Source of the DNA: Methylobacterium tardum | Lineage (GTDB): Bacteria; Pseudomonadota; Alphaproteobacteria; Rhizobiales; Beijerinckiaceae | Assembly (NCBI RefSeq): GCF_023546765.1 | Contig: NZ_CP097484.1 | Location: 5,029,501-5,093,500 of the forward strand | Direction of reading: 5' to 3' | Length of the DNA stretch: 64,000 nucleotides | Part shown: piece after piece, positions 45,591-61,425 of the stretch | Position numbering within the stretch: position 1 is the first letter of the stretch | Layout of the letters: every line of letters begins with the position of its first letter | Position numbers and translations under genes: made by a program | The notes under the pieces: generated by a model | Told to the model about the DNA's origin: nothing | Seen by the model: only the letters and a program-made list of their open reading frames with translations | Databases searched by the model: none

Positions 45591-46178
45591 CTAATTGCAT
45601 CCCATGCTGCCGCAGAGCGAATTGTTTGCGTTCAGCGATGGTGATGTGCCCGCAGTGCCGCGCAGCACGTTAAGAGCGCTCTTAGCTTCTTCGTTATCAG
45701 GCTTCAGACGAAGAACCTCTTCGTAATCTCGGATTGCCGCCTGCGTGTTTCCCAGGGTGACATAAGCCTTCGCCCTGTTCATGAGCGTGTTCGAGAAGGT
45801 CGGCCGCATCGCCAGCGCACGGTTGAAGTCCGTGATCGCCGCGATCGGGTTCTGCAGGCCCGCATAGGCGATCCCGCGATTGTGGAAGGCATAGGGGTAC
45901 TGATCGTCCGCCCGGATGGCGCCGTTGCAATCCGTCAGGGCGTCCGCGAACGCGCCCCGGTCGATATTCGCCCAGCACCGTCCATCGAGGGCGATCGCGC
46001 GCTGCCGCGGCGTCCGGGCCTCGGCGAGGAGGCGGCTGCATCCGCCGACGCGCATCTCCGGGCTCCCGGACCGACAATCCTGGGCGGGATCGGCCAGAGC
46101 GGAGGAACACGGGAGCGTCATCGCCGCGATCAGGCCGGCGTGGCCCCATGCAATGAGGGCGAGCAAGGGGGCGCGCAT
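45591..46178 (-). CDS. Secreted TPR repeat protein
   Basis: A 195-residue protein. The signal peptide (APLLALIAWGHAGLIAAMTL, then ALADP) is followed by about three TPR units, readable as YAFHNRGIAYAGLQNPIAAI, NTLMNRAKAYVTLGNTQAAI and DYEEVLRLKPDNEEAKSALN. Paired cysteines near both ends (CRSGSPEMRVGGC; LCGSMGC) suggest disulfides in the periplasm. It probably provides a protein-binding scaffold. It is the last gene of the long minus-strand Srf-type cluster, 44 bp after the caspase-like gene. The start at 46178 (MRAPLL) is chosen because the signal peptide begins there. Confidence 0.82.
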   Translation of the reverse strand: MRAPLLALIAWGHAGLIAAMTLPCSSALADPAQDCRSGSPEMRVGGCSRLLAEARTPRQRAIALDGRCWANIDRGAFADALTDCNGAIRADDQYPYAFHNRGIAYAGLQNPIAAITDFNRALAMRPTFSNTLMNRAKAYVTLGNTQAAIRDYEEVLRLKPDNEEAKSALNVLRGTAGTSPSLNANNSLCGSMGCN

Positions 46179-46222
46179 GGTCGATCCGTCCTGCTTCCGG
46201 CTTCTCGGGCGGCTCATCGCTG

Positions 46223-48073
46223 TCAGCCGCAGCGATTGTTGAAGACATCGCGGCCGGGCAGCTGCATCGAGTTCATCATGCGCAGCAGTTCGGCCCGGTA
46301 CAGGTCGCTGAACTCGGCGGGGAAACGCCCGCCGATATTCGTGATCGTGCTGCGGTCGTCGCGCCGGATCGCCGCGAAGTCGTAGAAGCTTCTGTCGTCG
46401 AAGCTGCCTTGGGCGACGGCCGTCCCGCGGCCTTCGAGCACGAACCCGGCGCGGACCGGCGAGGTGTTGACCTCCTGCGCGCGGCTGATCTGGCTCCGTC
46501 GCGGCCGGATCTGCTCCGTGATGAACTGTTGCGCGCTGCCGCAACGCTCGTTCGGGCTGACCTGCACGTACATCACCACCTGCTCGCCGTGCTGCCGCGA
46601 GTGCCAGATCGTCGTGTAGGTCTGCTTCTGCGGATCGTACTGGTCGTTGGCCATCGGCGAGATCTCGAGCAGGTTGGTCGAGTAGTTCAGCGTCCAGCCG
46701 GAGGCGCTTCCGACCGTGGTGCGCTGCTGCAGCTCACGCTGGCGCCGCTCCTCCTCCAGGCGGCGCTGCTCGTCCTGCTCCCGCTGACGTCGGGCGTCCG
46801 CCCATTGCCGATCCATCTCCTCCTGCCGTCTGCGCCTGTCCTCCTCTTGACGTCGGGAATCGTCCGCCTGCTGCCGTCGGGCCTCGTCCTGGCGATCCCG
46901 CGCGCGGCCGCACTCAACCGCGAAGGTGTCGACCAGGGCGCGGAAGCGACCCGCCGGGTAGGACGCGCTGTAGCTCGCGGTGGCCGTGGCATCGTCGCAG
47001 GAGGCGACCGCCCGCTGATAGGCCCGCTGCTCCCGCCCGGCCTGCAGCCGGTCCTCGAAGGGCCGTGCATAGGGATAGGTCCCCGTCATCGCCTCGCAGG
47101 CGCGGATCGCGGGATCGAGATTCGCCCCGCGCAGCGCGGCCGGCTCGGCATTCGGGTCGATCTTGTTGCACTCGGTCCACAGGCCCGCGAAGAACCCCTG
47201 CGGGATGAAGGCGAACGAGGTGGTGAGCGCGCCGCTCGCCCGGGGCTCCAGATCGCTGCCGGCGAGGCCCCGCTTCAGGGTTTCGTGCGACTGCAGGAAG
47301 GTCTCGCCCTCCTGCGCCATCGCGGCGAGCATGGGATCGCGCAGCGAGGCGCGGCCCGCGAGCGGTGCGCCCGATGCGTTGCGGCGACCGGCGCGTTCGC
47401 CGCCGATGACGCTCGCGCCCGAACTTCCCGCTGCTGCATCGAAATCGCAGTGCCCGCCCGACGCGGGTTGACACTCGTCGATCACGACGACGAGTTCGCG
47501 GGTCCGGCGTCGGGCGACGCGGCGCAGCACGTCGCTCAGCCGCACGCCCTCGCTGTCGAGCAGGCCCGGGCGCTGTCCGGCATCGGACGGGGCGTCCTGC
47601 GGCATCAGATAGATGTCGTCGGCGCCGCCGATGGTCGGCCCGAGGGCGAAGACCGCCACCTGGGCCTCCTCCGGCAGGCGGCCGACGGCCTCGCGCAATC
47701 CGCGATCCAGCTGCGGGCGGTCGGCCGGCCCGACCGTCCACACCTCGAATCCGATGTCGCGCAGGCGCTTGCGATAGGCCTCCTCGTCGGCGTTGGCCGT
47801 CGCCGCCCGGCCGCCGGAGGACGAGGCTTGCGGCACGATCAGCAGCGCGATCCGCTGTCCGGTGACGGCGCTGCTGCGCGCGGCGGCGGCCTGGACCGTC
47901 AGCCCGGGCGAGGCCGCGTGCCCGGCGGTGGCGGCGACACCGAGCGCGGTCGCGGCGGCCAGGCGCCTCCAGCGACGGTCGGTTCGGGCGGGCGGGGCCA
48001 TGTCGGGAATCCTCGGCATCGGAGAGTGTGAGAGTCGCGGCCGGACGGACATCGTGGGGCGCGCCGGGGCCAT
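46223..48073 (-). CDS. Secreted caspase-fold protein with degenerate active site
   Basis: A 616-residue protein. A basic N-terminal extension and signal sequence (RRLAAATALGVAATAGHA) precede a caspase/metacaspase p20-like domain at about 72-205: RIALLIV, then RKRLRDIGFEVWTVG, VAVFALGPTIGG and LVVVIDECQPA. The usual catalytic GHG is replaced by PTIGG, while the cysteine equivalent (Cys201, DEC for DAC) remains, so the fold is clear but proteolysis is doubtful. A very charged coiled coil (about 425-490, RRQEEDRRRRQEEMDRQW) links to a beta-rich C-terminal domain with paired cysteines. The ATG at 48073 overlaps the previous stop (TGATG), indicating coupling within the Srf-type operon. Confidence 0.78.
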   Translation of the reverse strand: MAPARPTMSVRPRLSHSPMPRIPDMAPPARTDRRWRRLAAATALGVAATAGHAASPGLTVQAAAARSSAVTGQRIALLIVPQASSSGGRAATANADEEAYRKRLRDIGFEVWTVGPADRPQLDRGLREAVGRLPEEAQVAVFALGPTIGGADDIYLMPQDAPSDAGQRPGLLDSEGVRLSDVLRRVARRRTRELVVVIDECQPASGGHCDFDAAAGSSGASVIGGERAGRRNASGAPLAGRASLRDPMLAAMAQEGETFLQSHETLKRGLAGSDLEPRASGALTTSFAFIPQGFFAGLWTECNKIDPNAEPAALRGANLDPAIRACEAMTGTYPYARPFEDRLQAGREQRAYQRAVASCDDATATASYSASYPAGRFRALVDTFAVECGRARDRQDEARRQQADDSRRQEEDRRRRQEEMDRQWADARRQREQDEQRRLEEERRQRELQQRTTVGSASGWTLNYSTNLLEISPMANDQYDPQKQTYTTIWHSRQHGEQVVMYVQVSPNERCGSAQQFITEQIRPRRSQISRAQEVNTSPVRAGFVLEGRGTAVAQGSFDDRSFYDFAAIRRDDRSTITNIGGRFPAEFSDLYRAELLRMMNSMQLPGRDVFNNRCG

Positions 48074-49083
48074 CAGGGACGACAGATCGCCCGGAGGCGG
48101 TCGCTGGCGGCACTGCCCTCGCACAGCGCCCGGAGCGCCTCGGTGTGGCGGGGGGAGCGGTTGCGCCAGAGGGCGTAGTAGTAGGCTGCCCGCACGATGT
48201 CGGGCCGCGCCGCCTCGCGGTACGCCGCGTCGGCGTTGCCGGGGTCGTAGAAGCGCGCGAGCTGCCAGGCCGCGTCCGCGCTCGTGACCGGATCGGCCTC
48301 CTCGAAGGCGCGGAAGGCCGCGCTCCCCTGCCGGGAGGCGAGCGCCGTCTCGCCGAGCGCCAGGAAAGCGCCGGCCGGCGCGCGCTCGTCGACGAGGCGG
48401 GCGTAGCGCTGCCGCAGCTCGGCGGCCGTCAGGCGGGAATCCGGCTCGGGAGGAGCCGGCGGCGGGCTCGGCTCCTGGGGGGGCGCCTCGCGGCGGGCCA
48501 CGAGGTCGGGCAGCCGGTCGCGGTACAGGTAGGCGCCGCCAGCGGCCAGCGCGAGGAGCATCAGCGCGACCAGAGGCCAGAGCAGCCGGCTCTTGCGCGC
48601 AGCCGGCGCGGGCGCCGGCGGAGCCGCGGGCGCGGCGTCCTGCGGCGGGGCCGGCTCCGGTTCCGGGAGCGGCACCGCCTCGGTGGCCGCGACGGACGGA
48701 CCACCGATGCCGTCCCGGGTCAGCGTCGGAGCCGCTGCCGGAAGGCCGGCGAGGATGCCCCCGCCGGACGGCGCGGGCGAAATGGTCGGCCACGCGACCA
48801 CGCCGAAAGAGGTGCCGTCCTGCGCGACGATCTCGATCGGGACCAGCTCCTCGATGCGGTCGGCGACGTTGGGGCCGAAGCGCGCGACGGCCCGCCCGTC
48901 CCGCTCGGTCACCGCGAGCGGCGCGAGCCACGCGACCTCCGGCTGCCAGCCCTCCGCCCCGAGATGCCGCGGCTCGGTATCCTGGCGGCGGAACGAGAGC
49001 AGCGGCGACGCCAGCGGGCGACCGAGATCGATGAAGGCGTAGCCGCCGGACTCGTCCTCGTCCTCGGTGATGCGGATCGTCAT
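48073..49083 (-). CDS. Membrane protein of the Srf cluster with a TPR/Sel1-like C-terminal region
   Basis: A 336-residue protein. Residues 1-100 form a beta-rich cytoplasmic domain (YAFIDLGRPLASPLLSFRRQ; ELVPIEIVAQDG), followed by a proline-rich linker (about 138-162) and one transmembrane helix (168-187, LLWPLVALMLLALAAGGAYL). A second proline-rich stretch leads to a helical region (AAFRAFEEADPVTSADAAWQ) resembling TPR/Sel1 units and ending in a Cys-containing tail. I do not recognise a named family. Predicted topology is a cytoplasmic N-terminus with a periplasmic C-terminus, so it could couple SrfB/SrfC to the caspase-like protein, whose start overlaps this stop by one base. Confidence 0.72.
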   Translation of the reverse strand: MTIRITEDEDESGGYAFIDLGRPLASPLLSFRRQDTEPRHLGAEGWQPEVAWLAPLAVTERDGRAVARFGPNVADRIEELVPIEIVAQDGTSFGVVAWPTISPAPSGGGILAGLPAAAPTLTRDGIGGPSVAATEAVPLPEPEPAPPQDAAPAAPPAPAPAARKSRLLWPLVALMLLALAAGGAYLYRDRLPDLVARREAPPQEPSPPPAPPEPDSRLTAAELRQRYARLVDERAPAGAFLALGETALASRQGSAAFRAFEEADPVTSADAAWQLARFYDPGNADAAYREAARPDIVRAAYYYALWRNRSPRHTEALRALCEGSAASDRLRAICRP

Positions 49084-49127
49084 GGCGAAGGCTTCATGCG
49101 TACAGCGGAGCGAGCGGGCGGGGGCGG

Positions 49128-51743
49128 TCAGGCGGCGCGCGCCTGGAGACCGGCGAGGATCGCGCCGATCCGGGCGTTCTGCGCGAGGTCGATCGTGACG
49201 CCGGACGCGCTCTTGGCGTTGTCCTCGACGATCCGGTAGAAGCCGTGGAACCAGTCGGTGGCGTAGGTATGGGCGAAGGTCGCGGGGGCCTGCCCGATGC
49301 TGCGGGCGTCGTAGCTGACCGGTCGCTGGGCGAAGGCGACCCGATCCCCCGCCTCGTCCTGGATCGCGGGGCGCTCGCCGGCCGGCGGGACGAGGGTGAA
49401 CCCGAGGCTGCCGGTCAGCCGGTTGAGGCGGGTCGCGGCGATCAGCGCGAGCTTGACCGTCGACTGCTCGGAGCGCTCGACGGTTGCCGTGTCCCGCAGA
49501 TCGGACGCGATGCCACCCTCGATGTCGGCGCGGCGGGCCAGGATGATCAGCTCGCTGACCACGATCTCCAAGGCGGTCAGCGGCACGGCGAAGCGGCGCG
49601 CGAAGTCCTCGGTCTCGATCGTACGGCGCAAGGCCACAATCCAGGCGGCGACCACGGCCCGCGCCATCGCGCGCTCCCGGTCGTTGCCCAGGCTCGACGG
49701 CTCGGCTCGAGGCGCCGGCGCCGCGCCCGGCCGCGGGATCGCCCCGGGGCGGGCGATGCGCGGCGCCGCGACGGGGGGCGCGGCCTCGGTGGTCACGCTC
49801 TCCGCCCCGTGCAGGGCCTGCGCGAGCGCCGCGGGATCCACCATGAGCGCCCGGAGGAGCGAGCCGAACTGGCCGGCCGCCACGACCGCATCGAGCGCGT
49901 CGAAGACCTCGCCGGCCGCCTCGCGCCGTTCGGCCAGCCGCGTCTCGATGTCGAGGGCGACGTGGAAGCGGGCAAGCCGCTCCCGCATCTCGGCGCGCAG
50001 GGCCTCCAGCCGGGAGGCGATCTGCTGCGCCTTCAGCGCCGGCCGGCAGACCCGCGACAGGTTCTCGGCGAGGTAGCTCACGCCGCCGTCGTTGAGGCGG
50101 AGGGCCTCATCGAAGGCGCGGCCCGGATCCGCGAAATGCGCGGTCGCCTCCGGCAGGGCGGCGAAGCCGGCGCGCAGCTCGGCGATCCGCTCCTGCTTCT
50201 CGGGCAGGAACGCCACCTCGCGCCGTCCGTCGTAACGGATGACCGATTCCGCCGGGTAGTTCGGGTTCCGGAACCAGTAGGTGTTGCGGAACGGCGCGCC
50301 CGGAATCCATTGCCGCGGCCACGTGTGCGCCTTCCCGAAGAAGCCGAGCAGCGAGGCTTCGATCCGGTTGCGGAAGCGCAGGCCCGCATCCTGGCCGACG
50401 TCGCCGGCCTTGTCGGCGAAGTGGCTGTCGAACCACGTGAGCACGAGGAACAGCAGGTTCGGCAGCTGCGCCCGCGCCTCCGGGCTCGATCCGTGCGTGA
50501 GCGTGATCCAGCGCTCCACGAGGTCGGGCAGCGTCACGACCTCCTGGTTGGAGGGGCGGACGCACAGCATCATCGCGGTCAATTCCTGCTCGGCGACGTA
50601 GCGGTCGAACAGGTAGGCGACCTTGCCGCGCAGGAAGGTCTCCTTCAGCGCGTCCGGGTGCGCGGTCAGGAAATGGGCGAGATCGACCTTCTGACGGCTG
50701 CGGGCGCCGGGGAAGTCGAGCAGGTCCGCCTCCTGGAGAAAGGCCCGGGGCGTGTCGGCGATCTCGATGCGCAGCTCCGCGGTGATCGCCGCCACCGTGG
50801 CGCGCGCCAGCGTGACGGCCCTGCCGCCGGCCGCGTGCACCGTCAGGGTATCGTCCGAGCGAGCCGCCCCGAGACCCGCCAGGGTCGCCACATCGAGGAT
50901 GCTGCCCTCGCGGGGCACCAGAGCGGCGAGCGGCGCGAAGATCTCCTCCGGATGGTCGAGGCGTTCCAGCGCCTCCGCGAGCTGGCGGTAGACGGCCGTG
51001 AAGGCCGCGTGGCCGCCCCAGAGGGGCGCGAACAAGCGGGCGCGCCCGTCGAGGTCGAGGCCTCCGGCCAAGCTGCGGGCCTCATCCCAGTAGCGGGCGA
51101 GATCGTCGAGAGGCCGCGTGCCGCGGGCCTGGTCGCGCACATAATCCTGCAGGTCGTCGATCGCGACGTCGCCGAAGCGCGACGTGCCGGGTCGGGCCTG
51201 GGCCTTCAAGCTCGCCAGCAGCGCGGCAATGGCCTCGGGGCCCGGCGGCGTCTCCTTGGTGGCGTCGCCGTCGTGCAGGAAGGTGTTGCACAGGACCTTG
51301 ACGAGATCGACCTCGCTGAGGACCCGCAGGCGGACCGGCGCACCGGGCGGCGTCTGCCCGGCCGTAGCTCCTGCACCGGCCGTGAAGCGGGTGACCAGCC
51401 CCGTCGCCTCCTTCTCGCCGATCGGGTTGATCTCGGCCAGGAAATCCACCGGCTCGTGCCCGTCGAAGCGGGCCCGCAGGGCACCGTCCTCCGGACGCGC
51501 CAGGACCTCGACCAGGTAGGATTTGCCCGCCTGGCTCGGCCCGAACACGCCCGCGCACATCGGCCGGGCCGCCGCGCGGGCCAGCCGCTCGGCCCGGTTG
51601 GCCGCCTTCCGGACGTAGCGGATGAGATCCGCACGCTCGCGTCCGACCGCGCCGGCATTGGCCTCGTCGCCGAGCCACTGCTCGGCGTCCTCGGCCAGCC
51701 GGCCCGTATTCCTGCAATCCTGCGCCAGATGTTCGGTCGACAT
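49128..51743 (-). CDS. srfC: SrfC-like P-loop (GTPase-like) protein
   Basis: An 871-residue protein matching the putative virulence factor SrfC. The P-loop GPSQAGKS is at residues 68-75, and a possible switch motif LLDFPGARSRQ, like the DxxG of GTPases, is near residue 345. Long helical segments and a proline-rich linker (IPRPGAAPAPRAEP) precede the C-terminal domain. The overall organisation resembles dynamin-like GTPases that act at membranes, but no transmembrane helix is evident. ATG 51743 was preferred to TTG 51755, which would overlap the srfB stop. Salmonella SrfC is an SsrB-regulated candidate effector of unknown activity. Its coupling to srfB (8 bp gap) is conserved. Confidence 0.87.
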   Translation of the reverse strand: MSTEHLAQDCRNTGRLAEDAEQWLGDEANAGAVGRERADLIRYVRKAANRAERLARAAARPMCAGVFGPSQAGKSYLVEVLARPEDGALRARFDGHEPVDFLAEINPIGEKEATGLVTRFTAGAGATAGQTPPGAPVRLRVLSEVDLVKVLCNTFLHDGDATKETPPGPEAIAALLASLKAQARPGTSRFGDVAIDDLQDYVRDQARGTRPLDDLARYWDEARSLAGGLDLDGRARLFAPLWGGHAAFTAVYRQLAEALERLDHPEEIFAPLAALVPREGSILDVATLAGLGAARSDDTLTVHAAGGRAVTLARATVAAITAELRIEIADTPRAFLQEADLLDFPGARSRQKVDLAHFLTAHPDALKETFLRGKVAYLFDRYVAEQELTAMMLCVRPSNQEVVTLPDLVERWITLTHGSSPEARAQLPNLLFLVLTWFDSHFADKAGDVGQDAGLRFRNRIEASLLGFFGKAHTWPRQWIPGAPFRNTYWFRNPNYPAESVIRYDGRREVAFLPEKQERIAELRAGFAALPEATAHFADPGRAFDEALRLNDGGVSYLAENLSRVCRPALKAQQIASRLEALRAEMRERLARFHVALDIETRLAERREAAGEVFDALDAVVAAGQFGSLLRALMVDPAALAQALHGAESVTTEAAPPVAAPRIARPGAIPRPGAAPAPRAEPSSLGNDRERAMARAVVAAWIVALRRTIETEDFARRFAVPLTALEIVVSELIILARRADIEGGIASDLRDTATVERSEQSTVKLALIAATRLNRLTGSLGFTLVPPAGERPAIQDEAGDRVAFAQRPVSYDARSIGQAPATFAHTYATDWFHGFYRIVEDNAKSASGVTIDLAQNARIGAILAGLQARAA

Positions 51744-51751
51744 GCGTGATC

Positions 51752-54700
51752 TCAATTCAGGGCGAGGATGCCGGTGTCGAGCCAGTATCCCTGCTCCGAG
51801 GCCAGGGTATCGAGCACGAGCTCGATCTTGCGTCCGACGTCGAGACCGTCCGCGTCGTAGGCGTCGGTGATCTCGAACTCTTCCTTCATCGACTCCGAGC
51901 GCAGCAGGGCATCCGGCCCTTCGTCGTCGGGCCGGCCGTCGCCGCTGCGCTCCAGGGTGATCTCGAGGGGCAGCCGCAGCTGCGTCGCCTCCTGGCCGGC
52001 GCGCATCCGCAAGCGGTAGAGCGGCGTCGCGATCCAGCGCTCCACCGGCAATTGCCGGTACCCCAGGCGCATCGGCGCGTAGTACCGGAGCTTCGCGCTC
52101 ATCGCCGGTCCCTGGCGCCGGGCCGAGGCCGGCGCGTCGAGATCGACTTCGCGGAAGACGAGGCCGGCGTCGCGGAGCTGGCCGCTCAGCTCAAGCTCGC
52201 CGATGTAGCGGGCCGTGGAGCGCAGCGCGAGTCGGCGGGTGAACAGGGTGAAGTTGGTGAGCTGGCCCTCCGCGAGCGCGCAGAGCATGCCGCCCACAGC
52301 CGTGGTGGTCTTGGGATCGCCGATGCGGCGGTTGTCCCGCTCCCGGAACGGGTACCACGTGCCGGCCTGATACTGGTGGAGCGGCACGATCCGGTCCGGC
52401 GAGACCGCCAGCTTGTCGGCGAGGCAGTCGGCGAAGGCCTGGAGCCGGGACGGGCGGCCCGAGAGCAGGACCACGTCGACGTCGAGGGCGTGCACGGCCT
52501 CGCACAGGTTGTCGAGGACGAGGTCGAGCGTCGCGACCACGCAGGCGCCGACCACGTCGGCCCGGCTCTCGAAGACGCAGTCGGTCAGGGCGAAGTCCGC
52601 CGCGCCGCCGGTGCGGGCCGGGATCTCGAGGAAGTCGAGCAGGCGCTGCTGCGGCAGGGCGCGCCGCAGGATCCGGCCGCCGCGTTCGGGGAAGAACTCG
52701 GCGAAGGGGCGGGCGGTGGTCTCCGCGCCCGCCTCGACGTCGCCGAGGATGCGCAGGCCGATCGGCTCCAGCACCCGCGACACGAATTGCCGGCGCAGAT
52801 GCTTCTCCTGCTCGGCCATGTTGGCGCGGTCGCCGCCGAAGCGCTCCAGCAGCAGGGCGTGTGGGTCCGGATGCCCGGCCGAGCGCAGGGCCGCCTCGAT
52901 CGTGGGCAGGACGAGGCGCTCGATCACCCGCTTGAGGATATCGTCGCCGGCGATCCGGAACCCCTCGCGGAAGTTCTGCACCGGTTTGATCGCCCGGTTG
53001 CCCTCCGCGTAGTAGGTCGTGATCATCAGGTCGGTGGTGCCGCCGCCGACATCGATGCTGGCGATCCGCACCGACGGCTCCGGGCGTATTTCCGGGCCGG
53101 GTGTGGTGTCGGGCTCCGCGAACGGCCGGGGGCGGCCGACGAGCCTCAGGAAGCCGTCAACGGCACCGCCGAGCTTCTGGGTGATCTCCCCGTACAGGTA
53201 GACGAACTGGACGCAGCTCGCCTCGTCCCACGCGACGTGGACCTCGGGCTGGGTCAGGCCGGGGGGCGGATTGTCGGCCCAGCCCATGAGCTGCCAGATC
53301 AGCTTCACCGCACCCTCGGCGCGGGACCGGAGCAGGCGCTGCTCTTGGACCGGCATGGCGGGCGGCAGGGTCAGGATGATTCGGCGCAGCTTGCGCGGGG
53401 CATCCTTCGTGCGCCGGCGCTCGCGCACCCCGGCATTGTTGATGGTCGACAGGGCGTGGCAGACCACCTCGGCGACCATGAAGGTGAAGTAGGACGAGCG
53501 CGAGAAGGTCAGGCGCGAGGCGCCGACGCGGTCGTCCGGCAGGACCCGAATCCCGTAGCGCTTCCGGTCGGCGTCGAGCTGCGCGATGACGTCGCCGCGG
53601 CTGTTGACGAACTGCCGGATCGTGCGGTCGATCAGCGGGCTTGTCCCGTCGGCGCCGTAGTCGCGATCGGGGAAGCGCCATTCCTGGTTCACCGGGCGGA
53701 CGTCGCACAAGTAGCGCTTCGGGCTCGACAGGCCGCCCACCGCCTCGGTGCCCTGGGCGAGCTCGCGGAACCGGCTGGCCTCGGGCCCGACCCGGACGGG
53801 GCTCGGCCAGAAGAACGCCCGCGGGCGCGCCGACAGGCGCGAGAGGTGATCGCGGCCGAACCGGGCGTGCGACAGCTCGACATGGCTCTCGAACGGCTCG
53901 GTGTAGACCTGCTCGGGCTCGGACAGGTCGCGGAGCTGCAGCACGAACGAGTTGTTGAGGTCGACCCGATCCTCGTTCGGGTGGGACTCGATCAGGATCC
54001 CGCAGGTGCGGCTGTTGCCGATGTCGAGGATCAGGTCGACCGTGACCGGCCGGATCGCCGGCTCTGCCGTCACCGTATCGGTCAGCCGCAGGGTCCGGGG
54101 CCGGACCGCCATCTGCAGGTACTCGAGGAAGACCAGATAGCGCGCGTAGTGCTCGAGCGTGTTCGGGAAGTCCGTATCGCGCAGGGGGCGATCCGGCCGC
54201 TGTGCCGCCTTGAACTCGCGGAACTGCTCCAGCAGCCATGCGGGCACCCATTCCTGGAAGCCGGCCAGCCGGCGGGTCTCCTCGCCCTCCCCGGCCGCGC
54301 CCAGGAACCAGCCGATGTCGCGGAAGCGATGGGCGAAGCGGAACTCGTGCTCGTTGGCGGCATCCTCCAGGCAGGGCGCCGTGTACGGCCGGTTCGGGCG
54401 CCGCTCGAGCAGCTCGGTGTCGAAGGCGAAGATCACCCGGTGGCTGATCGGGCTGTCCGGCGCCCGGTCGGCGACCTCGACGATCCGCACGCGCGCCCAG
54501 TTGGTCGGTCCGAGGTCGAGCTCCTCGCCGCCCTCGACGCCGGCCTTGACCCGCAGCATCGGTACCGGGGTCCATTTCTCCAGGAAGACCTCGAGGGCGC
54601 CGCGCTCGCCGACCGCGTATTCCCGGTCGTCACCGCGGGCGGTCTCGACCGCGTCGGCGCCCGGGTCGTCCTCGTTCCAGGTCGGAAGCAGGCTGTAGGT

Positions 54701-54862
54701 CCGCCGCCCGTCCCCCTGGGGCGCGCCCGTGACCGCGCGCTCGGCGAAGCGGCGGGACAGGCGCCCGACCGTGTCGATGTGGAAGGCGTATTCCACGAAC
54801 TGAACGCCGCTGTGCGGGACCAGCCGGATCGTGGGGCCGAAGGGGACGGGATCGACAAACAT
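51752..54862 (-). CDS. srfB: SrfB-like actin/Hsp70-fold ATPase
   Basis: A 1036-residue SrfB-family protein. The N-terminal 270 residues are unique to the family. From residue 275 it has the signatures of the actin/Hsp70/sugar-kinase ATPase fold: phosphate-1 DIGNSRTCGILIES (from D280), phosphate-2 SIDVGGGTTDLM (D604) and adenosine motif VVLLSGRPSRLQAF (about 793-808). This suggests a nucleotide-dependent cytosolic scaffold or chaperone, perhaps filament forming. It has no signal peptide. It sits between an SrfA-like membrane protein gene (65 bp upstream) and srfC (8 bp downstream), reproducing the srfA-B-C order of enterobacteria. The biological output is not established in any species I can name. 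Confidence 0.88.
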   Translation of the reverse strand: MFVDPVPFGPTIRLVPHSGVQFVEYAFHIDTVGRLSRRFAERAVTGAPQGDGRRTYSLLPTWNEDDPGADAVETARGDDREYAVGERGALEVFLEKWTPVPMLRVKAGVEGGEELDLGPTNWARVRIVEVADRAPDSPISHRVIFAFDTELLERRPNRPYTAPCLEDAANEHEFRFAHRFRDIGWFLGAAGEGEETRRLAGFQEWVPAWLLEQFREFKAAQRPDRPLRDTDFPNTLEHYARYLVFLEYLQMAVRPRTLRLTDTVTAEPAIRPVTVDLILDIGNSRTCGILIESHPNEDRVDLNNSFVLQLRDLSEPEQVYTEPFESHVELSHARFGRDHLSRLSARPRAFFWPSPVRVGPEASRFRELAQGTEAVGGLSSPKRYLCDVRPVNQEWRFPDRDYGADGTSPLIDRTIRQFVNSRGDVIAQLDADRKRYGIRVLPDDRVGASRLTFSRSSYFTFMVAEVVCHALSTINNAGVRERRRTKDAPRKLRRIILTLPPAMPVQEQRLLRSRAEGAVKLIWQLMGWADNPPPGLTQPEVHVAWDEASCVQFVYLYGEITQKLGGAVDGFLRLVGRPRPFAEPDTTPGPEIRPEPSVRIASIDVGGGTTDLMITTYYAEGNRAIKPVQNFREGFRIAGDDILKRVIERLVLPTIEAALRSAGHPDPHALLLERFGGDRANMAEQEKHLRRQFVSRVLEPIGLRILGDVEAGAETTARPFAEFFPERGGRILRRALPQQRLLDFLEIPARTGGAADFALTDCVFESRADVVGACVVATLDLVLDNLCEAVHALDVDVVLLSGRPSRLQAFADCLADKLAVSPDRIVPLHQYQAGTWYPFRERDNRRIGDPKTTTAVGGMLCALAEGQLTNFTLFTRRLALRSTARYIGELELSGQLRDAGLVFREVDLDAPASARRQGPAMSAKLRYYAPMRLGYRQLPVERWIATPLYRLRMRAGQEATQLRLPLEITLERSGDGRPDDEGPDALLRSESMKEEFEITDAYDADGLDVGRKIELVLDTLASEQGYWLDTGILALN

Positions 54863-54927
54863 CGGGGAGACGGATCTCGTGGGGCGCGTGGCGGCGGATC
54901 GGGGGGCAGCTCTGGGCGTCGGGTCGG

Positions 54928-56301
54928 TCAGGGCACGGCCGCGCTCCCGGTCGGGGCCTGGAGGCCGCTCTGCGGCGGTGCCGCGATCGGCAGGTCGAAT
55001 GACAGCACGGCTTGCGCGACCCGCTCCGCCGAGATCCGGCCGGCGCGCTGCTCGGCGATCTCGCCGTGGCGCGACAGGATGACCTGGAACGGGATCTCCG
55101 GCCGGGCCTCACCGTGACGGGCGAACAGCCCGACCTCGACGCCGTAGCGGCCCTCGGGGGCGGGGGCGTCGTCCCAGATCACGTGCTCCACCGGCCGGCT
55201 GGCGCTGCTCCCACCCTTCTCGTTCTGGTCGGCCACGAGGCGGGCGCCGCAGGAGGCCCGGTGCTCGAAGCTGATGCGCGTGCGGTCCGGACAGACGACC
55301 TGGAGGTCGAGATCGGACGCGCCTTCCCACGCGAGCGTCAGTTCGAGACCCTGCCCGCGCTCGATGCCGGCGAGACGCCGCGCGAGGTCGGGGGGGAGTA
55401 CCTGCGGGGCCTCGAGCGCGGCCCGGCGCGGCGGCACCGGGCAGCTCGCGTCGCAGGTGAGCGCCTGGCGCGTGAGGGCGAGTTCGGCGGCCCGCACGGC
55501 GTCGTCCGTGGTCTGGATCGTCGCGAGGATCGCGCTGCCGTCGGGATCAAGGGCCACCGACGGCGCGGGGCAGTGATCGGGCAGCACCGCGCGCATCCAG
55601 GCGGGCCAGTCGCCGCTGCCGACGGCGCAGGCGCGCAGGAGCCGGTCCGCCAGGACGCCGCAGAGCAGCACGAAGACGAGCCAGAGGATCGGCGCGAGCC
55701 ATGGCCGCCGCGCGGGCGCGAGCCGGACGCCGGGCCGCGCCGGCGCCGCTCCGGCCATGTCGGGAAGCGGCGCCGGCGGCGCCCAGAGATTGGCCGGGGC
55801 TTCCACCGCCGCGGCGCTCGCCGTGATCGCGGCGCCGCGCGCGACGGCCGGGCCGTCCGAGCCGGCGCGCCGGTAGCCCCAGGCCACCAGGACCGGCTGG
55901 CCGTCGACCGACCACAGGTGGTCGGCGTCCGGGACAACGAGCGCGTCCCGCAGCAGACGGGCGAGGTCACGCGAGGCCTCGCCCTCGCGCTCCAGGCCGT
56001 CCGCGAAGGTGGTGATCTCGGCGACCAGACGGGCCGCGGTCTCGCGCAGGGTCGTGGCGGCGGCGGGATCGAGCGCGGTCACGGGCCGCGCGTCGCCGTC
56101 GACCGCGGCGAACCACGCGAAGCCGGGACGTCCGGTGCCGGCGACCGCGACGGGGGCCGGTTCGGCGAACAGGTGCGCGTGCGCCGGGCTCAGACGGCGC
56201 GCCAGCAGGTCGACGAGCTGCTCGTATTGCTGCGCGAGCTTCGGATTGACCGGGTCGAGGCCGAGGCGCGGCGTCTCGGTAAGCTTCGTGGTCGCGGACA
56301 T
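54928..56301 (-). CDS. srfA: SrfA-like membrane protein
   Basis: A 457-residue protein. The N-terminal module (residues 1-150) resembles SrfA: LFAEPAPVAV, FAWFAAVDGDARPVTALDP and VPDADHLWSVDGQPVLVAWG. A single transmembrane helix is at about 203-224. The C-terminal part contains a cysteine-rich segment (LTCDASCPVPPRR) and a beta domain (DLDLQVVCPDRTRISFEH) likely to lie in the periplasm. The same N-terminal module recurs in the adjacent SrfA-trypsin gene, 12 bp upstream. SrfA identity is inferred from remembered family features and from its position in front of srfB. It would present the periplasmic domain while its N-terminus meets cytosolic SrfB/SrfC. Confidence 0.72.
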   Translation of the reverse strand: MSATTKLTETPRLGLDPVNPKLAQQYEQLVDLLARRLSPAHAHLFAEPAPVAVAGTGRPGFAWFAAVDGDARPVTALDPAAATTLRETAARLVAEITTFADGLEREGEASRDLARLLRDALVVPDADHLWSVDGQPVLVAWGYRRAGSDGPAVARGAAITASAAAVEAPANLWAPPAPLPDMAGAAPARPGVRLAPARRPWLAPILWLVFVLLCGVLADRLLRACAVGSGDWPAWMRAVLPDHCPAPSVALDPDGSAILATIQTTDDAVRAAELALTRQALTCDASCPVPPRRAALEAPQVLPPDLARRLAGIERGQGLELTLAWEGASDLDLQVVCPDRTRISFEHRASCGARLVADQNEKGGSSASRPVEHVIWDDAPAPEGRYGVEVGLFARHGEARPEIPFQVILSRHGEIAEQRAGRISAERVAQAVLSFDLPIAAPPQSGLQAPTGSAAVP

Positions 56302-56313
56302 GATGACGGCCCC

Positions 56314-58091
56314 TCAGCGTGCCGGCGGCCGGGCGTCGCGCCCCGGCCGTGGGGCGGTCCGCGCGTCCGGCCGCGGAGCCGTCTGGCCGGCGGGCGCGGC
56401 CGGTGCCGGGGCGGGCGGCGTCGCGGCAGCCTCGGCCGGCTCGGCCGCGGCGGTCGCCGCCGGGCGAGGCGTCGCCTGGAGATCGCAGGGACGGTCGTCG
56501 ACAGCCGCGGTCACGCCGGCGCGCGCCAGGAACGCCGCGAGACCGTCGGCGCCCAGGGCGTAGCGCGCGGTGACCGGCATGCGGTCGTCCGTGCGGCCGA
56601 AGGCGTTCACGCCGACGACGCGGCCGCAATAATCGGCGAGCGGGCCGCCGCTGTTGCCCGGCGCGATCTCGGCCCCATGCAGCACCAGCGTCACGGCGGC
56701 CTCGTCGTAGCGCTGTAGGTGGTTGACCACGCCGGTCTGGACCACCGGGACGAGGTCGCGGCTCGCCGCGGCGTCGCCGTCCCGGAGGCGCGCGAAGGTC
56801 GGGTCGGTGCCGAGATAGAGGCCCGGGAACCCGGACGCGACCACCGGCGTCAGCGGGCGGCCCGGCTTCGCGAGGGCGAGGGGCCGCCCCCTGAGCGCGG
56901 CGGGACCCGCAGCAGGGCGAAGTCGGTCAGGGTGCCCGGGGCGCCGACCTGCACCAGGGTCGCCGGAGCGACGCCGGCGTGCCGCCCGGCGATCATCAGC
57001 GTCGAGGCTCCCTCGGCGACGTGGCGATTGGTGACGACGAGATCGTCCGCGACGAAGAACCCTGACCCGGTGGCGTCGCCGGCCAGGACCAGGACCGTGC
57101 TGCGCTCCAGCCGGTCGACGAGCCCGTCGGTGGCCGGCGCGCCGGGCCGACCGGCTTCCGACGGGAGCGCCGACGGCTCGACGGCGGCGCGGGCCGCGGG
57201 GGGCGCGGCCGGATCCGCGGGCAGGCGCACGCCGGCGGGGCTCTGCGGAACGAGCCCGGGAAGTTCCGTCCGGAGGCGGGGGCAGGCGAAGCCCTCAGCC
57301 GCTGCGAGGGCGTCGCGCCGGCGGCGAAGACCGTCGAGCCAGGCCGTCTGGAAGGCCCTGGACTCAGCCGATACGGCTTGGGGCAGCGGCGGGAAGACCA
57401 GAACGCCCGGCACATAGGAGAGCGCGACCAGGGCCGCCGCAATCCCGGCGGCGACGACCGGCGCGATGCCGCCGCGCCAAGCCGGTCGCACGGGAACACC
57501 GAGCCGCGGTCCGGGAGACGCATCCTGGCCGGCCGGGGCCGCCGGCTTGAAGCGTGCGGCCCAGTCGTCACGGCCGATCGGCGGATGGGGGAGGTGATCG
57601 GGGGCGAACGCACCGAGCGTCGACACGTAGTGGCGCACGCGTCCGCGCTCGTCCGCGGCCAATCCCTGAGGGAGCAATCCCCAGTCGGCGAGGAGCGGGG
57701 CGTCCCCGACCGCCAGCACGGCGGAGGGTCCCGCGAGATTGAGGCACGCCGCCGTGAACGCGCCCGCCTCACGGTCCCGCAGCACCGGCTCCAGCGCCGC
57801 CAGCGCGGCGCCAAGGCGGTGCCTGAGCTGGACCGCGCTGTCCGGATCAAGGTCGGCCAGCGGCCGGATCGGGCCGTCGAGATTCGTGTACCAGTCCACG
57901 CGCGCCGGGGCCGCCCCGTTGCTGCGCGAGATGACCGGCTCGGCGAAGAGTTCGGCAGCGGCTTCGCCGCCGTGCTGGCGCAGGATCCGGCGCAGCCGGT
58001 CATAGGCCTCGATGACCGGCCGGTCATCGGTGCGGACAGCATCCAGTCCGGCCAGCGTCCGGCTGGCGACGAAGCGCGTGGCGCCGGTCAT
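56314..58091 (-). pseudogene. SrfA-like module fused to a trypsin-like serine protease (frameshifted)
   Basis: About 592 residues once one base is added near 56895-56908. Residues 20-140 repeat the SrfA-like module (LFAEPVISRSNGAAPARVDW; DLDPDSAVQLRHRLGAALAA), a transmembrane helix is at about 210-232, and a trypsin-like protease occupies about 330-500, with the triad in TNRHVAEG, LTDFALLRV and APGNSGGPLAD. The protease would be periplasmic. The first frame ends at 56850 and the remainder reads from 56844 to 56314, with the serine in the second part. The gene lies between a Sel1 gene (33 bp upstream) and the SrfA-like gene (12 bp downstream). The fusion ties proteolysis to Srf proteins. Confidence 0.78.
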
Positions 58092-58124
58092 GGCCGCACC
58101 GCCTGCACTGCCCGCGGCCGCCGG

Positions 58125-58775
58125 CTAATCACAGCGGGTCCCCGTGCCGGCGCCGTCGAGTTCGAGACGCACGAGCGCGTCCCGCGCCTTCGTGGTGCCG
58201 CGCGCGGCGGCCTTTACGTACCAAGTCCTGGCCGCCGCGGCGTCGGGAGAACCGCCGATCCCGTTGTCGAGGGCGACCGCGTAGCAGTACATCCCCTCCG
58301 GGATGCCCGTCTCGGCTGCGTCGCGGAACCAGGCGCGCGCCTTGGCGTCGCTCTTCTCGAACCGGCGCCCCTGCTGGTAGAGGATCCCGATATTGACCTT
58401 GGCCGCACCGCTGCCCAGTTCGGCCGCGCGCCGATAGGCCTCGAACGCATCCTGGTTCGCGCCCTGCCGGTCGTAGGCGCGGCCGAGCTGGAAATGGAAC
58501 CGGCGCAGACGCGGGGCCTCGGCGATCGCCGCCTGGCATGCCGCTATGGCCGCGCCGGCGCGCAGATCCCGGAAGTTGACGGTCCGCTGCGCGTCGGGGG
58601 CATCCGGGTCCCACGGAGCGCTCGCGAGATGGTCGCAGGACTGCGCAGCCCCGACGCCCGGATCGCCGTCGTGCGCAGAGGACGCGCCACAGGAGATAGA
58701 ACCGACCAGCACAAGGAACCCGATACTTACCGCGGATCTTGGCCTGCCCTCGCTAGAACTGCTCAAGGTCAGCAC
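58125..58775 (-). CDS. Secreted Sel1-repeat (TPR-like) protein
   Basis: A 216-residue protein with an N-terminal hydrophobic export region (AVSIGFLVLVGSISCGASSA) whose Cys could be a lipobox, although the -3 residue is not the usual leucine. Sel1-like repeats follow: FQLGRAYDRQGANQDAFEAY, KVNIGILYQQGRRFEKSDAK and the C-terminal MYCYAVALDNGIGGSPDAAA unit. Start is a GTG at 58775. Sel1/TPR solenoids mediate protein-protein contacts. It is in the same direction as the Srf-type genes, 33 bp upstream of the SrfA-trypsin gene and 233 bp from the secreted protease gene, so it is probably the first or second gene of the core operon. Confidence 0.78.
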   Translation of the reverse strand: MLTLSSSSEGRPRSAVSIGFLVLVGSISCGASSAHDGDPGVGAAQSCDHLASAPWDPDAPDAQRTVNFRDLRAGAAIAACQAAIAEAPRLRRFHFQLGRAYDRQGANQDAFEAYRRAAELGSGAAKVNIGILYQQGRRFEKSDAKARAWFRDAAETGIPEGMYCYAVALDNGIGGSPDAAAARTWYVKAAARGTTKARDALVRLELDGAGTGTRCD

Positions 58776-59008
58776 CAGAGTGTCTCTCGAACACGATTGC
58801 CGCTTTCTACTTATACGCCAGCAGGTTAACGCGGCTACAATCTAAAGTGGTTAAGGCGCACGCGCTGAGATTGCGTGGGAAAACGCAAGGTGATTGTCGC
58901 GGGCCGTGGCAGGGCAGACACACGCGGACGGGGGATCCCCCGATCGCGGCGCGATCCCGCCCGAGCTGTCGGCTGCCGGAGAGCGGCCCTGTTACGACCG
59001 GGCCAGCC

Positions 59009-60189
59009 TCAACGGCAGGTGATCTGAACCGTGAAGTCGCGGGCCTTCTCGGCGATCGCGGCGCCGTCCATCGGGTCCGTCATGCGCACGTTGATCGGCG
59101 CCTCGACGCCGTTCGCCTCGAGGAAGTTGAGGGCGATCGCCGACTTGATGGCGAAGTTGACGTTCTGCGGCACGTCGCCGGAGGCGAAGGCGACCTGCTT
59201 GGATTGCACCACCCCGATCACGTTGCCGAACTGGTCGAGGGCGGGGCCGCCGCTATTGCCCTGCTGAACCGGTGCCGAGATCTGGATCTTGCGGGTGTCG
59301 TCGCCCGAGCCCGCCGTCGCCGTCACGCTGCCGATGGTAAAATTCCCGGTTGAAGCCAGAACATTGCTCTGCGGATAGCCGTAGACGTAGACATTCTCGC
59401 CGAGCCGCGCCCGGATCGAGAGCGGCGGCACCACCTTCTGCGGGAAATCGGTGGTCAGCACCGCGAGGTCGTTGGCGGCGTCCCGGGCGACGAGACGGGC
59501 CCGCAGGGCGGTATGGCCGGGCTGCTGCACGGAGATGTCCGAGCACGCCTCGACCACGTGGTTGTTGGTCAGCAGATGCCCGCGCTCCGACACGTAGAAG
59601 CCGGTTCCGGTGCTTGTCATGCCGGCCTCGAGCTTGCGCGGGTTATCGGGCGCGGGTTCCGCTTTCGCGGCCGCAGTCGTCACGTCCTTCTGGCAGCCGA
59701 TGACGGCGTCGAAGGCCTCCGTGGATCCGACAAGGGACAGGACGGCGATCTGCCGCCCCTGGAAGATCACGTTGATGCTGCCGGACTCGGACAGGTCGGC
59801 GACGAAACGCTCCTTCAGCCCCGACTGATACAATCCGTGCGCGTCTCCGCGCTCGAAGCCCGTGAACGTCCCGTGCCACTTCTGGCGGCCCGCAATCATG
59901 GAGAGCTCGTACTGCCCGCCGACCTCCAGCGAACGCCACTTGGTGTTGGTGAGGGCGGGTACGACGCGCCGCGGGCGCCGTTGAAGCCGAACCACAGCGT
60001 CGTCCCGTCGCCGTAGCTCGCCGCCGCCAGGCAGCCGCCGAGGCTCTCACTGTAGCCGATGGACCAGCCCGCGACCTTGCCGAAGCTCTTGTCGACCGTC
60101 AGCTTCGGGGGCGCGGGCGAGGCGGCAGCGGGGTGAGCCACGCCGCCAACGGCCGCCAGAGCGGCGAAGGCAACCTTCATTCGGGACAT
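59009..60189 (-). CDS. Secreted trypsin-like serine protease (frameshifted)
   Basis: About 393 residues after adding one base near 59961-59975. The signal peptide (AFAALAAVGGVAHPAAASPA) and a first domain with TVDKSFGKVAGWSIGYSESL are in one frame. The rest reads from 59995 to 59009 in another, including the PALTNTKWRSLEVGGQYEL segment and a trypsin-like domain with histidine in TNNHVVEAC, aspartate in ANDLAVL and serine in VQQGNSGGPALDQ. It should act in the periplasm. It is the first protease of the minus-strand Srf-type cluster, about 35 bp downstream of a glycine-zipper protein gene. HtrA-like PDZ domains are absent. Confidence 0.82.
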
Positions 60190-60224
60190 GCGCGTCGATC
60201 CGGCGTGCGTCGTGGCGCTGGGTC

Positions 60225-60611
60225 TCAGCGCGTCTGGTTGACCGAGGTCGTGGCGTTGCCCCGCGGCGAGGCGAAGGGATCTGCCGACGCGTTCACCACC
60301 TGCGCTCCCGTCGGGCCGGCGGCGGGCTGCATGGGCTGGCGGCTCGCACGAACGACCTTCCGCCGGGGAGCCGGCACGCGCCGAACCTCGTGGATAACGC
60401 GGACGGTACGGCGCGGCGCAGCATAGACGACCACGGGGCGCTCACGCGCCGCCTGCGCGGCAATCGAGCCCGCGATGACGCCGCCGAGGACACCTCCAGC
60501 CAAGCCGCCGAATACGGCACCCGCGCTTTGCGCGTGAGAGGGCGCAGGAGTCAGACTCAGTACGATGATCGCGCCGGCTGCGCCTGCCGACAACAAGAAA
60601 CGCCCTTGCAT
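60225..60611 (-). CDS. Secreted glycine-zipper protein
   Basis: A 128-residue protein with a signal peptide (LLSAGAAGAIIVLSLTPAPS, then HAQ) and a mature glycine-zipper stretch (AGAVFGGLAGGVLGGVIAGS) typical of small envelope proteins, followed by a basic Arg/Pro-rich region (APRRTVRVIHEVRRVPAPRR) and a polar tail. The start at 60611 (MQGRFLL) is chosen because the signal peptide begins there, with GGGTGAG upstream. The protein may insert into or rigidify the membrane or wall. It is the first gene of the minus-strand run that leads into the protease and Srf genes. An AT-rich segment with TATAAAT-like sequence lies about 60 bp upstream. Confidence 0.68.
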   Translation of the reverse strand: MQGRFLLSAGAAGAIIVLSLTPAPSHAQSAGAVFGGLAGGVLGGVIAGSIAAQAARERPVVVYAAPRRTVRVIHEVRRVPAPRRKVVRASRQPMQPAAGPTGAQVVNASADPFASPRGNATTSVNQTR

Positions 60612-61425
60612 CAACTCACCCTCTACAGACCAAACCCAGAAGTGACTGCGGCCTGATCGAAGCTTAGCCATATTTATAACCCTGTGAAGGGGGATCGATC
60701 ACATTTTGCGCATTTTAGGTTGCCTCTTGCTGAGCAAGGGCAACGGAAAGTTACGTAGATGGGGTCGGCGACTGCGGTGCAAATTCCAGGGCTCGCCCGG
60801 GTCTGTATGCGACTGAACCATTCCAGCGCTGCGCGGCGTCAAACGTTGAGAGTGCAGTCGAGATTCGTGCCCCATGGAGAAGCGACTTCGCCGCGCAAGC
60901 ACGTCGTGCTTGCCGGATTACAGGCATCGGCGATCCAACAAACCATCGAACCTGGTGCACACTCTCAAGCCACCGGCTCTCGCGATATTTGCTCTGAAAC
61001 GGGATCTGGATGCTGCTGCAGACCTATCAATGATGATTTGATCAACCCAGAAGTGCCCGTTTTGCTTTAAACAAAATCGAAACCAGCAAATGCAATCGAA
61101 AACATATTGCCAGAATTACTGCGCCGCCGAGCGTTCCAGTCGGCAGGGAAGCCGCTGTCGGCAAGCCAAGCGGGCAGATGGATCTGCTCAGCATGGACAT
61201 GGGCAACGCCTCGCGTTCCCGGACTCCGAACCCGCTAGGCTCAGTGGCGGAGCCGGGTCTGTATTTTGATGTTCTCGACCTGCAGGCGGCTGTAGCGGCT
61301 TCGGTGGAGGGTGGTCATCGCGTCGTGCGCCTCGCCGGTCGAGTCGCAGATTTCGTCCGTGACGACGTCGCACTAGCCGGCCCTTCGATGGGCTTCAGAG
61401 CAAAGCCTCGGGGCGACCTTGTCGG
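60612..61425. other. Long intergenic region at the head of the Srf-type cluster
   Basis: About 814 bp between the glycine-zipper gene and the phasin gene, both on the minus strand. It is clearly less GC-rich around 60655-60740 and 61010-61100. The first AT-rich patch contains TATAAAT on the minus strand near 60671 and is a plausible promoter for the cluster. No open frame in it is convincing (a 103-codon plus-strand frame at 60759-61070 has no ordered composition or ribosome-binding site). The lower GC might mark acquired or regulatory DNA. Confidence 0.5.

Follow-up and report, generated by a model that had tools for sequence, protein, structure and literature searches.

Within a 64,000-nucleotide stretch of the Methylobacterium tardum genome (assembly GCF_023546765.1, contig NZ_CP097484.1, forward-strand positions 5,029,501 to 5,093,500; the whole stretch is called the window below) we analysed an extended srfABC locus, which occupies positions 45591-60671 on the minus strand. 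The locus is a real, conserved and mobile unit, for which we infer a sharp and testable function: to this we give slightly less than an even chance, that it is a trans-envelope machine remodelling the inner membrane upon envelope damage or perturbation, with an exchangeable periplasmic input. The architecture is well supported, and the function is read from it. srfABC genes have long been annotated as 'virulence factor' without an established mechanism, and an envelope-sensor neighbourhood offers them a testable job.

Ten codirectional genes run from 60611 down to 45591 with gaps of 8-233 nucleotides, the widest (233) lying between the trypsin gene and the Sel1 gene. Gene starts were placed from the orthologues of Methylobacterium sp. 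NMS14P (plasmid pNMS14P1), and export of the small proteins was judged from their N-termini by eye and from hydropathy, with no signal-peptide program. From 60611 downward the genes are:

60225..60611, minus strand: small glycine-zipper protein of 128 amino acids (aa), probably exported (hydrophobic N-terminus; 95% identical counterpart in the same place on pNMS14P1).
59009..60189, minus strand: stand-alone trypsin-like protease, split (PF13365, E 2e-26); its first ~87 aa (60189-59920) are off-frame from the rest (open reading frame 59995-59009).
58125..58775, minus strand: Sel1/TPR-repeat protein (PF08238, 30.1 bits, just under the cut-off of 30.7; 90% identical on pNMS14P1).
56850..58091, minus strand: N part of SrfA1, with an SrfA-type N domain (NF040486, 29.6 bits), a hydrophobic segment at 209-227 and a trypsin domain through His and Asp (first half of PF13365).
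56314..56844, minus strand: C part of SrfA1 in another frame, with the Ser-bearing trypsin half (PF13365 profile 97-144) and a Pro-rich tail.
54928..56301, minus strand: SrfA2, with an SrfA-type N domain (NF040486, 52.6 bits), a hydrophobic segment at 200-218 by hydropathy and a different C-terminal domain.
51752..54862, minus strand: SrfB (PF07520, E 7e-271), with ATPase motifs DxGNS, DxGGGTTD and GRPSR.
49128..51743, minus strand: SrfC (PF10139, E 5e-228), with a dynamin-superfamily GTPase fold predicted by AlphaFold2 (AF2) and motifs GPSQAGKS, DLLDFPGA and TWFD.
48073..49083, minus strand: Mem (own Mem profile), with an N domain, a hydrophobic segment at 167-185 by hydropathy and a Sel1/TPR-like C domain.
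46223..48001, minus strand: putative pseudo-caspase with a PsbP-fold C-terminal domain, probably exported (AF2 model, Foldseek).
45591..46166, minus strand: TPR protein, probably exported (PF00515, E 6.7e-16), the last gene of the unit; homology to pNMS14P1 stops at 45595.

Pfam thus covers SrfB, SrfC, both trypsins and the TPR protein, with the Sel1 repeat just short. The glycine-zipper protein matched no Pfam family and nothing in the corresponding locus of Methylobacterium sp. Leaf125 (L077).

The two core proteins carry the mechanistic reading. SrfB scored 901.9 bits against PF07520 (gathering cut-off 27.1) over positions 7-991 of the 992 in the profile, and its D280-x-G-N-S, D604-x-G-G-G-T-T-D and GRPSR motifs were invariant in 15 of 15 aligned rows. 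We take these to be actin/Hsp70-superfamily motifs, the first two of the phosphate-1 and phosphate-2 kind, as the initial annotation of this DNA had also suggested, and by its motifs SrfB is better called a candidate actin/Hsp70-superfamily ATPase; compared by sequence with PDB chains, it matched nothing at E 0.1. SrfC scored 759.9 bits against PF10139 (gathering cut-off 28.1). Its AF2 model (mean predicted local distance difference test score, pLDDT, 89.4) has a large-GTPase fold made of a G domain and a helical bundle, with structural matches to BDLP, Drp1, Fzo1, mitofusin and EHD at about 10% identity in the structural alignments. G1 (GPSQAGKS) and G3 (DFPG) fit the dynamin motifs; G4 reads TWFD in the window (dynamin: TKxD), and over 80 rows TKxD stands in 61 and TKFD in 51. 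A predicted dynamin-superfamily fold of the mitofusin/BDLP type, with fitting motifs at G1 and G3, is well supported, and the earlier description of SrfC as GTPase-like can be sharpened to dynamin-like. Sequence comparison with the PDB gave weak matches only (MYC2, 0.32; Drp1 fragments, 0.75-0.81). A hydrophobic paddle was considered for window segment 718-736 and rejected, the segment not being conserved; a conserved hydrophobic stretch was not seen within residues 690-790 (2 of 80 rows), other membrane contacts not being tested.

What accompanies this core was assessed in relatives. Fifteen SrfB queries against genome contigs gave at least 489 confirmed relatives, of which the best 80 by likeness to the window were kept; the counts that follow are for these 80 plus the window, a sample weighted towards Alphaproteobacteria, in which some loci are near-copies. 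SrfC adjoined SrfB or lay one gene after it in 72 of the 81 loci. Downstream, a contiguous series vWA-ABC-permease-FGE, in that order, was present in 45 of the 55 loci with at least 6.5 kb available (window included); two more had three of the four genes and eight had none. Exactly one gene lay between SrfC and vWA in all 45 full-sensor loci, mostly one matching the Mem profile, and in a few (e.g., L144, L145, L150, L151 and L155) one matching the Sel1 profile only. The module also occurs in the non-alphaproteobacterial loci L065, L069 and L072. Upstream, among 49 loci with at least 4 kb available (window included), SrfA was found in 39, at least two SrfA in 35 and an SrfA-trypsin fusion in 29. 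Eight loci of one family (f49), which by inference we take for enterobacteria, consisted of A-B-C with no other profile adjoining. In L133-L138, L141 and L156 (Competibacteraceae and a few others) SrfB had other neighbours (in L136, proteins of ~214 and ~1416 aa) and SrfC was displaced or not found.

The kinship of the four downstream genes was tested in four genomes with a TagQ over cut-off, which we take to be Pseudomonas-like. In these four the permease profile scored 378-406 bits with a gene lying no more than 3 kb from TagQ and 40 bits with the runner-up, and the vWA profile matched, nearly over its full length, the C-terminal part of a frame of 1017-1189 codons (673-678 bits) and nothing else. 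In two of the regions the ABC profile matched the gene in the TagT place (266-269 bits) and the FGE profile that in the TagR place (315-320 bits), and the order ppkA-tagT-tagS-tagR equals vWA-ABC-permease-FGE. Judged by profile matches and gene order, the relatives' genes are kin of the threonine-phosphorylation sensor of the type VI secretion system (T6SS), namely of the periplasmic vWA half of PpkA together with TagT-TagS-TagR. The PpkA frame of L173 has its kinase at residues 35-276; no Pkinase match was found in the Srf vWA proteins of L088 and L065 (2 of 70 scanned), and because the median length of the Srf vWA proteins, 645 aa, leaves no room for one, the kinase is presumably absent from the others too. 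Thus the relatives appear to keep the PpkA sensor part without its kinase output. We also considered whether the glycine-zipper protein is TagQ and rejected it: the TagQ model NF041250 is too widespread (E <= 0.001 in 177 of 299 genomes, four over cut-off, none in the window genome), the glycine-zipper of L088 scored 35 bits against a cut-off of 300, and the glycine-zipper profile misses TagQ.

SrfA and Mem would connect this periplasmic part with the core. NF040486 covers only the N-terminal ~100-120 residues of the SrfA copies, and their scores in the window lie below its 150-bit cut-off, so that both copies are best described as having an SrfA-like N domain and are not filed as members of the SrfA family. 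Across the 113 loci for which genes were called, a set in which some genomes occur twice, exactly one hydrophobic segment was predicted in 26 of 32 SrfA-trypsin fusions, 91 of 100 other SrfA and 70 of 79 Mem proteins; for comparison, FtsX-type permeases had 4-5 segments in 62 of 66. Because the SrfA/Mem segment lies near mid-protein with, on average, a more positive N-side flank, all three proteins, SrfA1, SrfA2 and Mem, seem to be N-in/C-out connectors that cross the membrane once, each with a cytoplasmic domain and a differing periplasmic head (trypsin, another C domain, and TPR, respectively). The SrfA2 C-domain profile matched in 45 of the 113 loci; DUF2135 was tried for this type of tail and dropped (E 0.25 in L088, no match in the window). 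Rhodoblastus (L080) has a protein that combines a Mem-type N domain with an SrfA2-type C domain, a swap suggesting that connector heads can be shuffled. The same locus (L080:3787-21925) holds four Mem-type genes, the swapped one among them, and a separate SrfA2-type C-domain protein.

The Methylobacterium locus differs in its input. The vWA profile found nothing in seven genomes (the window genome, Leaf125, Methylocapsa, Mesorhizobium, Rhodoblastus, Rhizobium C4 and Sinorhizobium terangae) and was recovered in 4 of 4 positive controls; TagT/S/R genes are absent from the window block and were not sought elsewhere in the window genome. In a quick SrfB tree these seven sensorless loci fell into one set of ten rows (support 100) with three sensor-bearing loci, from Xanthobacter, Aureimonas and Cohaesibacter (the last without an ABC match), and because both kinds share the set, the sensor seems to have been lost or exchanged within it. 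Other genes occupy the neighbourhood: rhizobia have PAN-domain and GH3 proteins, Rhodoblastus has an Amidase_3 gene upstream, and Methylobacterium has the pseudo-caspase and TPR protein, which appear to sit where the relatives have the sensor. The PAN-domain proteins and GH3 hydrolase lie downstream of SrfC/Mem in L180 (Mesorhizobium japonicum plasmid pMLa, typed conjugative), L079 and L095.

The caspase-like protein had been annotated as a secreted caspase-like protein; the predicted fold bears out the likeness to caspases, and protease activity is improbable. It had no Pfam match and, by sequence, only an unrelated best PDB match at E 0.036. Its AF2 model (pLDDT 81, predicted template modelling score 0.56) matched MALT1 in Foldseek (E 2.2e-7; template modelling score normalised by target 0.65) and, in the tail, PsbP 2xb3 (E 1.1e-5). 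At least 22 homologues were found, the four with an organism name all being Methylobacterium. Among the 22 of 23 aligned rows (window included) that cover the active site, the Cys (DEC) is kept in 22 and a His at the GHG position, assigned by motif and not by residue-level structural alignment, in none. Because the Cys is kept and the His is not, we read the protein as a pseudo-caspase, probably not a protease. Since one homologue (P0018) is fused to the Mem C-terminal domain (51% identity, E 9e-35), the pseudo-caspase is tied to the SrfABC machine; a caspase fold has apparently been retained after loss of the catalytic His and linked to the machine by gene fusion. Such a partner occurs in only 2 of the 113 loci (the window and L077). 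Recurrence of protease neighbours outside the genus, on which the initial reading was staked, holds for trypsin, with an SrfA-trypsin fusion in 27 of 47 loci (window and L077 excluded), and fails for the caspase-like protein.

The ten genes appear to travel together. Window positions 60984-45595 aligned with pNMS14P1 as a single 15,414-bp block at 94.6% identity. The flanks fetched from the plasmid (4.9 and 4.8 kb either side) had no match in the window, where the block is bordered by:

41442-43826: topoisomerase with Toprim.
44392-45213: DUF72 gene.
62228-63547: polyhydroxybutyrate depolymerase.

The window genome (6.94 Mb, two contigs) carries the block on its 6.9-Mb contig. Because chromosome and plasmid share one alignment with unrelated flanks, all ten genes seem to move as a single unit between Methylobacterium chromosome and plasmid. 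Repeats of at least 10 bases common to the 400-base stretches at both block ends amounted to one inverted 10-mer in the window and none on the plasmid. The ratios of nonsynonymous to synonymous substitution (dN/dS) between the two copies were 0.080 (glycine-zipper), 0.256 (Sel1), 0.326 (SrfA2), 0.086 (SrfB), 0.162 (SrfC), 0.233 (Mem), 0.174 (caspase-like) and 0.171 (TPR), ratios that indicate purifying selection on all eight intact genes. SrfB is 98.4% identical on the NMS14P plasmid; among the named genomes fetched, from which very near records may be left out, the nearest was Leaf125 (88%), where the order Sel1-SrfA1-SrfA2-SrfB-SrfC-Mem-Casp-TPR is kept with a trypsin gene downstream on the opposite strand. 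The block, these ratios, the Leaf125 order and the SrfB and SrfC families together uphold the initial call of ten codirectional genes with SrfB, SrfC and two SrfA-like proteins. SrfB was found in 22 of 398 phylum-sample and 22 of 385 class-sample genomes (the window genome counted in each) and in none of the five genus mates of the phylum sample. One SrfB-less genus mate (G151; 19.9 kb examined, L178, G151:C15:3300-23200) has only the C-terminal half of the caspase-like protein, the TPR gene and a trypsin, apparently a remnant of the block. In a plasmid collection of 72,556 records, 142 carried an SrfB homologue; going by organism name, Klebsiella accounted for 114 of these.

Breaks within the block were found only in the two genes for serine proteases. 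The stand-alone trypsin lies in frames -2 and -1 in the window and is one coding sequence (393 aa) on pNMS14P1; since 98.4% identity to the plasmid protein persists over its longer part, either the frame was broken recently or the assembly is in error. The SrfA-trypsin fusion, likewise in two frames (58091-56850; 56844-56314), is unbroken on pNMS14P1 (592 aa) and in Leaf125 (606 aa), and 30 of 32 fused SrfA rows have all three residues of the trypsin triad, the exceptions being the window and L129 (X at Ser). Each of the two had been annotated as a single gene, which the frame changes correct. This could represent decay of protease function, or it could be assembly error; as both are split, the window copy may be impaired, or the assembly may hold errors.

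Taken together, these features suggest how the machine might work. TagQRST-PpkA is described, in the accessible part of the report, as a sensor of outer-membrane damage (PMC11881912), and by analogy an insult would be sensed in the periplasm, in relatives by PpkA-vWA/TagTSR and in the window by the pseudo-caspase and TPR protein. Mem and the SrfA proteins would relay the signal through the inner membrane, perhaps switched by trypsin cleavage; SrfB, in the manner of an Hsp70, might load or release SrfC; and SrfC with GTP would assemble on the inner membrane, then seal, tether or shed damaged membrane. The earlier proposal of a signalling or effector machine for envelope stress is partly supported by the sensor kin downstream, the connectors and the dynamin-type SrfC model. 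A bolder version is possible, though we hold it with clear reserve. By it, SrfABC would be a kinase-free output branch of the TagQRST/PpkA sensor in which an Hsp70-type ATPase and a mitofusin-type dynamin repair or tether the inner membrane at the injury; periplasmic sensors would be swapped like cartridges (PpkA-vWA/TagTSR; PAN and GH3 in rhizobia; a caspase turned structural or sensing in Methylobacterium), and the short srfABC of enterobacteria would be what is left of this machine after reduction, not primarily a toxin. A dynamin-type SrfC, a kinase-less damage sensor and sensor exchange together raise the question whether bacteria have an injury-triggered, GTP-driven repair of the inner membrane.

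Four other readings bear on the same evidence. SrfC may be LeoA-like and shed vesicles for secretion or waste disposal, not repair; the dynamin-type model and the envelope-spanning connectors are consistent with this, as is the reduced vesicle release given for leoA/leoB knockouts in the part of PMC4159319 available, yet alone it leaves the Hsp70-type partner, the proteases and the relatives' damage sensor unexplained, and we consider it unlikely. Defence against phage or by cell suicide, the locus being a conflict system powered by NTP with proteases and a caspase-like protein among its components, would fit the mobility of the block, published conflict systems that mix GTPase, HSP70 and peptidase (PMC7159879, as far as its text was accessible) and a dynamin said to guard Bacillus from phage lysis (PMC8844932, likewise in part). 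Yet the caspase-like protein has no His, and SrfB, SrfC and their Pfam families are unnamed in the main text of PMC7159879, so far as this was available. PADLOC, run on eight proteins (glycine-zipper, SrfA1 C part and TPR left aside), matched only the stand-alone trypsin, to protease domains of other systems, and left Sel1, the SrfA1 N part, SrfA2, SrfB, SrfC, Mem and the caspase-like protein unmatched; we think defence quite improbable. Slimmer still is the chance that SrfABC is a secreted tripartite cytotoxin against eukaryotic cells (insects, protozoa), with neighbours aiding export. Xenorhabdus SrfABC made in E. coli is indeed reported, in the portion of PMC6950479 at hand, to be toxic to insect and mammalian cells, its three proteins forming a complex. 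Window SrfB and SrfC, however, have no N-terminal hydrophobic segment and the one hydrophobic stretch of SrfC, 718-736, is not conserved; SrfB carries ATPase motifs, SrfC has a dynamin-type model, and SrfA resembles a membrane protein whose head faces the periplasm. Many operons, moreover, run on into kin of a self-envelope sensor, and among the hosts are methylotrophs, rhizobia and acetic acid bacteria. That the module governs T6SS firing as TagQRST-PpkA does is very improbable in spite of the TagTSR and PpkA-vWA homologues and of the sheath gene VipB in 26 of 51 sensor-bearing genomes, and as a general role we reject it on this survey (which lacked named loci L082, L105 and L129 and the class-sample loci; control G286 positive), since 25 of the 51, Gluconacetobacter diazotrophicus and Azospirillum halopraeferens among them, showed no VipB (draft or metagenome-assembled gaps may hide some), none was seen in the window genome or Leaf125, the two vWA proteins scanned had no kinase, and T6SS machinery is noted for just one host-associated Deltaproteobacterium in the available text of PMC3608642.

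The srf-tag link itself is already known, to go by the accessible parts of two papers. PMC3608642 (2013) describes ten neighbouring genes in host-associated Deltaproteobacteria, namely srfABC, a Hap-like gene, tagQ, ppkA, ligA, tagR, tagS and tagT, with tagRST missing in two, and such genes are mentioned near Xenorhabdus srfABC in PMC6950479. Our searches covered titles and abstract starts, with most subscription papers and bioRxiv outside their scope; within it no title linked a bacterial SrfC to dynamin, and COG4458 occurred in PMC3608642 only. As far as these searches show, what is new is the absence of the kinase, the dynamin character of SrfC, connectors that cross the membrane once and bear protease heads, the exchange of the sensor, and a mobile Methylobacterium form that includes a pseudo-caspase. 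Hap, after which one gene of the Deltaproteobacterial neighbourhood is called Hap-like, we take to be a protease.

That neighbourhood resembles the relatives' arrangement in joining srfABC and a Hap-like gene to tag/ppkA; the portion of PMC3608642 available to us takes the gene for the kinase PpkA and regards SrfC as an effector, whereas in our data no kinase was found in the two vWA proteins scanned, SrfC is predicted to be dynamin-like, and the window lineage has neither the vWA part nor tag genes at the locus. The threonine phosphorylation pathway PpkA-TagTSRQ shares its gene order with the relatives' vWA-ABC-permease-FGE kin, but these differ in that no kinase was found, a T6SS is not obligatory and the vWA part is absent from the window genome. 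With BDLP, LeoA, IniA, SynDLP, the DLP pair and mitofusin/Fzo1, SrfC shares the predicted fold and the G1 and G3 motifs; it stands apart from them in its ~10% identity, in showing no conserved paddle and in being encoded with an Hsp70/actin-type ATPase. The 46223-48001 protein shares a predicted N-terminal fold and the Cys with the MALT1 paracaspase and Peptidase C14, from which it differs by having no GHG His, no Pfam match and a PsbP-fold tail. The short enterobacterial srfABC (f49, so assigned) has an SrfA-type protein, SrfB and SrfC in the same order and of the same PF07520 and PF10139 families, but as A-B-C alone, to which the window adds a second SrfA, proteases, Mem, the pseudo-caspase and the TPR protein.

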